A DNA stretch of 64,000 nucleotides, from contig CADEEV010000003.1 of NCBI GenBank assembly GCA_902826455.1, positions 62,001 through 126,000 on the forward strand, given 5' to 3'. Under the pieces are notes generated by a model. The model saw only the letters and a program-made list of their open reading frames with translations. It made no database searches and was not told the origin of the DNA. The DNA is from an uncultured Acidobacteriota bacterium (lineage in GTDB: Bacteria > Acidobacteriota > Vicinamibacteria > Fen-336). The position numbers and the translations under genes are program-made. Shown one piece after another: positions 19,977 to 27,201 of this stretch; within the stretch, counting starts at the first letter, position 1, and every line of letters begins with the position of its first letter.

Positions 19977-20124
19977 AAATACTTGTCGGACAGTGGGTTG
20001 GCTCGCGATTCCTTGTTCGAGGCTGGGACTCTGCGTCCCACGAACGGACAGGCCGGACGGTCCTGTGGAACGCGTCATCGGGCCAACGTCCGGGAGACAC
20101 AGGCTTTCGCCGGAGTGGCGTCGG

Positions 20125-20145
20125 TGGCACGGGCCTTGGTAGCCT
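20125..20145 (+). promoter_or_regulatory. TGGCACG box (sigma-54-like) and TAGCCT hexamer before exporter operon 2
   Basis: TGGCACGGGCCTTGGTAGCCT contains a perfect sigma-54 -24 heptamer. At the correct ten-base spacing from GG there is TTGG in place of TTGC. TAGCCT ends seven bases before the ATG at 20153. If this is a sigma-54 promoter, the transcript would begin only about two bases before the ATG. The same TGGCACG-N5-TGG-TAGCC layout precedes the other exporter operon at 1318. Confidence 0.45.
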
Positions 20146-23269: not shown

Positions 23270-24621
<1,352 letters not shown>

Positions 24622-24625
<4 letters not shown>

Positions 24626-25959
24626 GCCCGGGGCGGAGGCGCCGAGCCCTCACCCACGACCAACGCACGCTGCTGCTGGCCCTCGGGGCCGGAGCGCCCG
24701 CCCTGATCGCGACCGGGATCCTGCTCGCGGTCGGCGGCTACTCGGCGCGGGTCGAGTGGACGGTCGGGATCCTCGTGGGCCTGGCGTGGCTGGGCTTCGC
24801 CTTCGCCACCCAGAGCCAGGTCATCCACCCGCTGCGCACGCTCTCGAACCTGCTCGCCGCGCTGCGCGAGGAGGACTACAGCTTCCGGGCCCGCCGCACC
24901 CGCGGCGACGACGCCCTGAGCCAGGCCATGAGCGAGGTCAACGCGCTCGCCGACACGCTGCGCGAGCAGCGCCTCGGGGCGCTCGAGGCCACGGCGCTGC
25001 TGCGCAAGGTCGCCGAGGAGATCGAGGTGGCCGTCTTCACCTTCGACGGCGACCGCAAGCTGCGGCTCCTGAACCGCGCCGCCGAGCGCATCCTCGCGCG
25101 GCCGTCGGAACAGCTCCTGGGCCGCACCGCCGACGAGCTGGGCCTCGCCGTGGCGCTGGGAGAGAGCGGGCCGCGCGTCCTCGAGCTCGTCTTCCCGGGG
25201 GGCCTCGGCCGCTACGAGGCGCGCCACTCCGTCTTTCGCCAGGGCGGCCGTCCCCATCAGCTCCTGGTGCTCGCCGACCTCTCGCGCGCGCTGCGCGACG
25301 AGGAGCGCCAGGCCTGGCAGCGCCTGATCCGCGTCATCGGCCACGAGCTCAACAACTCCCTGGCGCCGATCAAGTCCATCGCCGGGAGCCTCGAGGCCCT
25401 GCTCTCCCGCGAGCCGCGGCCCGCCGACGTCGACGACGACATGCGGCGCGGCCTGTCCGTGATCGGCGCCCGGGCCGAGTCCCTGTCGCGCTTCATGGAG
25501 GCCTACGCGCGCCTCGCGCGGCTGCCCGCGCCGAAGCTCGCGCCGGTGGACATCGGCGCGCTCGTGAAGCGCGTGGCCGGGCTCGAGACGCGTCTTCCGA
25601 TCCGGATCGAGACCGCGGGCGTCGTCACCATCCAGGCCGACGGCGACCAGCTCGAACAGCTGCTCATCAACCTGTTCCGCAACGCGGTCGACGCGACACT
25701 CGAGACGGGCGGCGGCGTCCGCACGGGCTGGAAGCGCCTGCCGGCGGCGGGCCAGGTCGAGGTCTGGATCGACGACGACGGCCCCGGCCTGCCGGCGTCC
25801 ATGAACCTGTTCGTGCCGTTCTTCACGACCAAGCCCCAGGGCTCCGGCATCGGCCTGGTGCTGGCGCGCCAGATCGCGGAGGCCCACGGCGGGGCGCTGG
25901 CCCTGGGGAACCACGAGGGGGCCCGCGGCTGCCGCGCCATCCTCCGCTTGCCGCTGTAG
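24622..25959 (+). CDS. NtrY-like sensor histidine kinase with two helices and almost no periplasmic domain
   Basis: This 445-residue kinase has two closely spaced helices (LLLALGAGAPALIATGILLA and TVGILVGLAWLGFAFA) with only about ten residues between them. A HAMP-like linker, a PAS-like segment (about 130-220), the H-box IGHELNNSLAP with His241, and the ATPase domain (NLFRNAVDATLE, DDDGPGLP, GSGIGLVLARQIAEAHGG) follow. Lacking an outer sensor, it must perceive signals in the membrane or from a partner, most simply the permease of its operon. The GTG start overlaps the regulator stop. Confidence 0.92.
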
Positions 25960-25973
25960 ACCCTTTTCCCTTC

Positions 25974-25989
25974 TGGCACGCCTCCTGCT
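25974..25989 (+). promoter_or_regulatory. Strong sigma-54 promoter candidate upstream of the GNAT operon
   Basis: TGGCACGCCTCCTGCT matches the sigma-54 consensus (TGGCACG-N4-TTGC-A/T) at all but one base of the fixed positions. GG (25975-25976) and GC (25987-25988) are exactly ten apart. It starts 15 bases after the stop of the sensor kinase. Transcription would begin near 26000, about 80 bases before the GNAT start. The adjacent NtrC-type regulator is the obvious activator. Confidence 0.6.
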
Positions 25990-26080
25990 CTAGCACGTGG
26001 CGACGCGTGAATCGGTGGCTGATACGTGGCGCACCACCCACAAACGCGTGGTCGCGGAACCACTCGAGAGGTTGATGATC

Positions 26081-26512
26081 ATGAGCGTGCAGGTCCGACC
26101 GGCAAGCCTCCAGGACGGTGTGGCCGTCCTCGCCCTCCTCGAACAGGTGGGCTACTACCCCGAACCCATCCCCTTCGCCCAGACCTATCGGAAGACCCTG
26201 ACCGACCCCCACTTCCTCGTGCGCGTCGCCGTCGACGACGACGGGGCGATCGTGGGGATGGCGTCGCTGTCGTTGCGCTACCAGCTCGGCCTCGGCGGGC
26301 TCGTGGCCTCCCTCGACGAGATGGTGCTCGCCCCCCACACGGACGCGAAGCGCGCGACCAAGCTGCTGCTCCTCGCGACCGTCGGGAAGGCGCGCTCCCT
26401 CGGCGCCCGCCGCATCGTGCAGAAGGCGAACGAGGGGACGCCGCCGCCGCGCGCGGCCCAGCTCCGGGCCGCCGCCGCTGCCGCCGCCGGTTCGGCCGCC
26501 GCCGCCGCGTAG
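26081..26512 (+). CDS. GNAT-like N-acetyltransferase, C-terminus atypical
   Basis: This 143-residue protein shows the first part of the GNAT fold: MSVQVRPASLQDGVAVLALL, the beta4 stretch GAIVGMASLSLRY, LDEMVLAPHTDAKRATKLLL as a reduced acetyl-CoA loop, and SLGARRIVQKANEG. The usual C-terminal FY-x-x-x-GF segment is missing. In its place is a low-complexity tail of Ala and Arg. It may be a decayed or truncated enzyme. ATG at 26081 has GAGAGG at a suitable distance. An ATG at 26075 and a GTG at 25997 are alternatives. Confidence 0.6.
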   Translation: MSVQVRPASLQDGVAVLALLEQVGYYPEPIPFAQTYRKTLTDPHFLVRVAVDDDGAIVGMASLSLRYQLGLGGLVASLDEMVLAPHTDAKRATKLLLLATVGKARSLGARRIVQKANEGTPPPRAAQLRAAAAAAAGSAAAAA

Positions 26513-26556
26513 CGACCTTCCCCGAACCACGCGGGACCGGAGATAATCCGGCCCGC

Positions 26557-27201
26557 GTGGCACAGAACGAGTCGCTGAACTTCGAGGGGCCCGCCGGGAA
26601 CCTGGAGGGCCTCCTGATCCAGCCCGAGACGCCGCCGGTCGCTGCCGCGGTCGTCTGTCATGCCCACCCGCTCCACGGCGGCATGATGCACTTCAAGGTG
26701 ATCTTCCGCGCCGCGAAGGCGCTGCAGGCCCAGGGCGTCGCGGCGCTGCGCTTCAACTTCCGCGGCGTCGGCCGCTCCGGCGGCAGCCACGACCACGGCA
26801 AGGGCGAGCAGGACGACGCGAGCGCCGCCCTCGACGAGATGGCGCGGCGCTTTCCGGGCCTGCCGCTCGTGATCGGCGGCTTCTCCTTCGGCTCGCACAT
26901 GGCGCTGCGGGTCGCGGCGCGCGATCCCCGTCCGGCCGCGGTGATCGCCATGGGCCTGCCGATCAAGAGCCTGGCCGATCCCGAGTTCGCGGACGGAATC
27001 ACGGTGCCGCGGCTCTTCGTCCACGGGGAGAACGACACGTACGGCGGCCGCGATGCGATCACGGCCTGGGTGGCGCGGCTGCCCGAGCCCAGGCAGCTCA
27101 CGGTGATCCCCGACAGCGATCACTTCTTCACGGGGCATCTCGATCCCCTGCAGGCCACGATCGAGGCCTGGGCCAGCGCCCGGCCCTGGCAGCGCGCGTG
27201 A
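26557..27201 (+). CDS. Alpha/beta hydrolase (short-chain, dienelactone-hydrolase-like)
   Basis: This 214-residue hydrolase has the CHAHPLHGG oxyanion-region motif, [13 protein letters not shown] after strand 4, the nucleophile elbow [10 protein letters not shown] (Ser), the acid region [11 protein letters not shown] and the catalytic His in SDHFFTGHL. This pattern is typical of the small YheT/DUF-like alpha/beta hydrolases found in many proteobacteria and acidobacteria. The start is GTG at 26557, nine bases after GATAAT (26542-26547), consistent with a leaderless message. The TGA overlaps the start of the next gene. Confidence 0.88.

Follow-up and report, generated by a model that had tools for sequence, protein, structure and literature searches.

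A sigma-54 promoter before a GNAT gene of Vicinamibacteria and its putative downstream enhancer sites, shared with lpxC

In the synthesis of lipid A of the outer membrane, the committed step depends on the gene lpxC. In enterobacteria, the sites of the regulator GlrR (QseF) at glmY have the palindromic form TGTC-N10-GACA. In Escherichia coli and Pseudomonas, the control of LpxC appears to be exerted mainly at the protein level (PMC3333781), which is why a dedicated transcriptional control of lpxC matters. Such control was described for DVU2934 of Desulfovibrio vulgaris, a response regulator of the NtrC family with lpxC as its single target, and orthologues of this regulator were reported in Acidobacterium capsulatum (PMC3333781). 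For FleQ of Pseudomonas aeruginosa, enhancers downstream of the RpoN site are indicated by the title of Jyot et al. 2002, cited as reference 27 in PMC10723142. A direct literature search on sigma-54 promoters in Acidobacteria gave nothing relevant.

The locus described here lies within the window, i.e., the whole stretch of 64,000 nucleotides that was analysed (Table 1). An earlier note on this DNA had read TGGCACGCCTCCTGCT at 25974-25989, with GG and GC ten bases apart, as the best sigma-54 site of the window and as the promoter heading a GNAT gene, an alpha/beta hydrolase gene and a spermidine-dehydrogenase-like oxidase gene. The site itself is borne out by its conservation and by a single mismatch to TGGCACGNNNNTTGCW (TGGCACG-N4-TTGCW), a score reached in 0 of 1000 dinucleotide shuffles of the 200-bp upstream region. 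Its rank holds among sites with both invariant pairs, but the exporter-operon site at 20125 also has one mismatch to the consensus, its -12 element carrying GG instead of GC. In the window alone, five sites with at most two mismatches were found against 7.0 expected for 64 kb; quality within the window is thus not above chance, and conservation had to decide.

Table 1. Features of the window discussed in the text
Feature	Coordinates	Strand	Remarks
Exporter-operon enhancer GTCCCACGAACGGAC	20035..20049	+	absent from the GNAT promoter
Exporter-operon sigma-54 site TGGCACGGGCCTTGGT	20125..20140	+	28 bp before the ATPase ATG
Exporter-linked response regulator	23270..24625	+	REC, sigma-54 activation domain with GAFTDA, HTH_8
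Exporter-linked histidine kinase	24697..25959	+	
Sigma-54 -24/-12 promoter of the GNAT gene	25974..25989	+	TGGCACG CCTC CTGCT; conserved at 16/16 GNAT loci
Leader enhancer site 1 (putative), GTGGCGCACCACCCAC	26026..26041	+	GTG-N10-CAC; second-best window match to the lpxC matrix
Leader enhancer site 2 (putative), GTGGTCGCGGAACCAC	26048..26063	+	GTG-N10-CAC; best window match to the lpxC matrix
GNAT-fold protein (P0002), 143 aa	26081..26512	+	PF00583, E 1.9e-5; AlphaFold pLDDT 84
GATAAT, -10-like	26542..26547	+	9 nt 5' of the hydrolase GTG 26557; similar hexamer there in several relatives
Alpha/beta hydrolase	26557..27201	+	adjoins GNAT in most relatives; probably a separate unit

Orthologues of the GNAT gene occur in 12 other genomes of the same family and in three that belong to another family within the order, whereas the other 44 relatives searched gave none; those relatives with this protein that are known by name are Acidobacteria/Vicinamibacteria metagenome assemblies. 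Across the resulting 16 loci (own genome included), whose counts come from related genomes and are not independent trials, a -24/-12 site precedes the GNAT start codon in every case, at a distance of 107-186 bp and with one to three mismatches (three in two of the 16, one or two in the remainder). Among control tiles of 200 bp, a site of at most two mismatches was present in 28 of 2184. The DNA flanking the sites at the GNAT loci has otherwise strongly diverged, so that the promoter stands out as a footprint. Since it persists while the upstream neighbours differ, 25974-25989 is assigned, on this comparative evidence, to the GNAT gene as its own sigma-54 promoter, in agreement with the gene named first by the earlier note. 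A transcription start is predicted near 26000, with a leader of about 80 nt.

The 5.26-Mb assembly to which the window belongs encodes one RpoN, and RpoN was found in 15 of the 16 genomes, the exception being 75% complete. The perfect sigma-54 consensus occurs six times in the genome, compared with none for the reversed pattern, and the perfect sites inspected are mostly intergenic, a short distance 5' of start codons. The most plausible start codon of the GNAT gene is ATG 26081 rather than GTG 25997. The best fold matches of the AlphaFold model of its product are GNAT structures, and the acetyl-CoA binding loop (R/Q-x-x-G-x-G/A) looks degenerate in the alignment. An alanine-rich tail closes the protein (26081-26512). 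The three orthologues from the other family share an identical protein and differ in their upstream DNA.

The genes further downstream are doubtful targets of this promoter. The distance between the GNAT and hydrolase genes varies from 28 to 1324 bp across relatives; together with the GATAAT-like hexamers found before the hydrolase gene in several of them, this points to a probable promoter of the hydrolase's own, giving a nearly leaderless transcript, and at least part of the hydrolase transcription is probably separate from that of GNAT. In the own genome, a strong hairpin lies between the two genes (26527-26560; -31.9 kcal/mol for the stretch, z -4.6), and its right arm extends over the GTG start of the hydrolase. 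As for the oxidase, it was not found near GNAT in relatives, and its linkage is not conserved.

The palindrome GTG-N10-CAC was found between the promoter and the start codon in all 16 GNAT leaders. In most leaders of the family it is doubled, with the two copies 21-23 bp apart (22 bp in the own genome, where the right half of site 1 is degenerate, CCCAC), and some orthologues, namely those of the other family and a few of the same family, have one clear site only. The stricter form GTGGY-N6-RNCAC is present, on either strand, in 14 of the 16 leaders, in 0 of 16 of the 200-bp regions upstream of the -24 element and in 1.6% of control tiles. In most genomes searched, the tandem pair is essentially unique to the GNAT locus. 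In the leaders L007, L008, L010, L013 and L015-L017, an additional strong, genus-specific inverted repeat is located between the promoter and the palindromes.

A link to lpxC was first provided by a search for the element 45-75 bp before a promoter, which returned two matches, one of them at lpxC of a relative. When 14 genomes were scanned for enhancer plus promoter, matches were obtained in 12 genomes, and 14 of the 16 matches were lpxC; the reversed control gave a similar total, scattered over the genomes, and the evidence is therefore the concentration on lpxC, not the count. The own lpxC was identified with PF03331 (E 3e-104), and all 15 lpxC orthologues recovered, the own included, have a -24/-12 site with at least one GTG-N10-CAC upstream, in the classical enhancer position. 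The element thus lies near a -24/-12 promoter at both genes, with paired sites mostly 32 bp apart at lpxC versus 22 bp at GNAT. In the strongest test, a matrix built from the lpxC enhancers only ranked 26048 first and 26026 second in the 64-kb window, and at all 16 GNAT loci (2 to 3.4 kb each) its top match fell in the leader. Because a matrix of lpxC sites alone picks out the GNAT leader sites, a common enhancer at the two genes is indicated by their sequences.

A search for other regulon members, with the promoter followed within 20-50 bp by GTGKY-N8-CAC, yielded mostly scattered matches, no more than the reversed control. In the own genome, an lpxC-type enhancer and promoter were also observed at L139:1500-1750, before a gene for a small YtxH-like protein (named from reading of the sequence), which is a possible third member of the regulon.

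We propose that the GNAT gene and lpxC share one enhancer-binding protein, which would act at GNAT from downstream of the start site, and we give this reading a probability of roughly 75%. RNA polymerase with RpoN would start GNAT transcription near 26000, and an AAA+ enhancer-binding protein would recognise GTG-N10-CAC, more fully GTGGY-N6-RNCAC. The same protein would activate lpxC, where it would bind in the usual upstream place. At GNAT, its two sites, separated by 22 bp or two helical turns, would lie at about +26 to +64, and contact with the promoter would be made through a DNA loop from the downstream side. In that case, the GNAT protein would have a part in the same physiology as LpxC, namely the envelope or the supply of lipid A.

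The leading candidate for this activator is an orphan activator encoded behind obgE (L142:5145-6098), with AAA+ and Fis-type HTH domains, a GAFTDA loop and no receiver domain. Its gene, which overlaps the preceding one in a TTGA start-stop, is conserved in this position, its distance from lpxC being 3-5 kb within the family and 7.5 kb for the other one. This proximity tentatively suggests that it may control lpxC and GNAT, but conserved gene order could also explain it.

The position of the palindromes leaves some room for an opposite role. Located 3' of the transcription start and near the ribosome-binding site, they are more constant in their spacing from the start codon than from the promoter, and this nearly fixed spacing from the start codon would suit operators at which the lpxC activator or another protein represses GNAT, with a different activator driving the promoter. 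However, a sigma-54 promoter depends on an activator, the upstream DNA showed no other conserved site, and at lpxC the same element occupies an activating position. Repression through the leader sites is thus unlikely, and activation by the protein shared with lpxC is preferred.

Control by the neighbouring exporter-linked response regulator, as suggested by the earlier note, is far less probable. In its favour, the regulator has a sigma-54 activation domain and its operon directly adjoins the GNAT gene, but it does so in the own genome only. In one relative (L032), the exporter operon lies 2 kb upstream of GNAT with other genes in between; in all other relatives it is absent from the GNAT neighbourhood, as far as sequence was examined, and the promoter is kept without the adjacency. 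The enhancer conserved at the exporter promoter is another one, GTCCCAC-N3-CGGAC, which lies about 74 bp before the -24/-12 site. That -24/-12 site is placed exactly 28 bp 5' of the ATPase ATG in the own genome and four relatives, a distance so short that the exporter transcript would be nearly leaderless; in three of these genomes the enhancer is in tandem. When the family was searched for this enhancer plus promoter, the matches included a PadR-type gene, regulator genes whose receiver type is that of the exporter-linked regulator, and additional permeases of the MacB/FtsX type, with one fixed spacing common to most matches (loci L073, L074, L075, L082, L084, L086 and L091 in relatives) and with some other matches being noise inside coding regions; judging by these sites, the matches appear to form a small exporter regulon. 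GNAT is absent from the family matches, and the GNAT promoters do not contain the exporter enhancer (GTCC-N7-GGAC). The paired regulator sites that the earlier note had proposed to look for upstream likewise did not appear, as 24600-25973 holds no match to the exporter element or to GTG-N10-CAC. The exporter element thus marks exporters and the regulator genes of that type and never GNAT, which makes the locus a case where adjacency to a regulator gene can mislead.

It is similarly improbable that the palindromes act as RNA hairpins controlling translation of the GNAT mRNA. In favour of such a role, they are transcribed close to the start codon, and in some genera the leaders hold additional inverted repeats. 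Nevertheless, the covariation score of the stems is 0.045 against 0.044 after shuffling, and 10 of 11 sequences carry a mispair at the fourth pair of the site 1 stem; stems that show no covariation and in which one pair is nearly always mispaired favour a DNA site. No Rfam family was matched beyond spurious weak hits, and at lpxC the element is placed before the start, where it would not belong to the mRNA. Finally, a chance resemblance of the promoter within GC-rich DNA, which would fit the lack of excess of such sites inside the window alone, can practically be dismissed in view of its presence at every GNAT locus.

Compared with the known systems, the putative shared enhancer resembles the GlrR sites in having palindromic half-sites ten bases apart at sigma-54 promoters for envelope precursor supply, and it differs from them in the sequence of the half-sites. 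DVU2934 is similar in regulator type and target, being a sigma-54-type regulator devoted to lpxC. It is, however, a response regulator and shares its operon with a kinase, whereas the candidate near lpxC described above has no receiver domain, and no GNAT target was reported for DVU2934. An extension of our proposal is that the enhancer-binding protein is dedicated, within this order of Vicinamibacteria, to little beyond lpxC and GNAT, acting from upstream at the one and from the leader at the other, and that lipid A synthesis is adjusted by the GNAT protein, which might modify LpxC or a precursor; we consider this wider scheme rather doubtful.

A close parallel to the arrangement at GNAT, as far as the title of the FleQ study conveys, is found in the FleQ-dependent promoters, where enhancer sites also lie downstream of an RpoN promoter. 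By this analogy, the mechanism at GNAT would be a variant of the one known for FleQ, involving another gene, another site sequence and another phylum. It would also differ in that the enhancer of GNAT would be used upstream as well, at lpxC. The same enhancer upstream at lpxC and downstream at GNAT thus offers a natural test of the freedom of position of enhancers.
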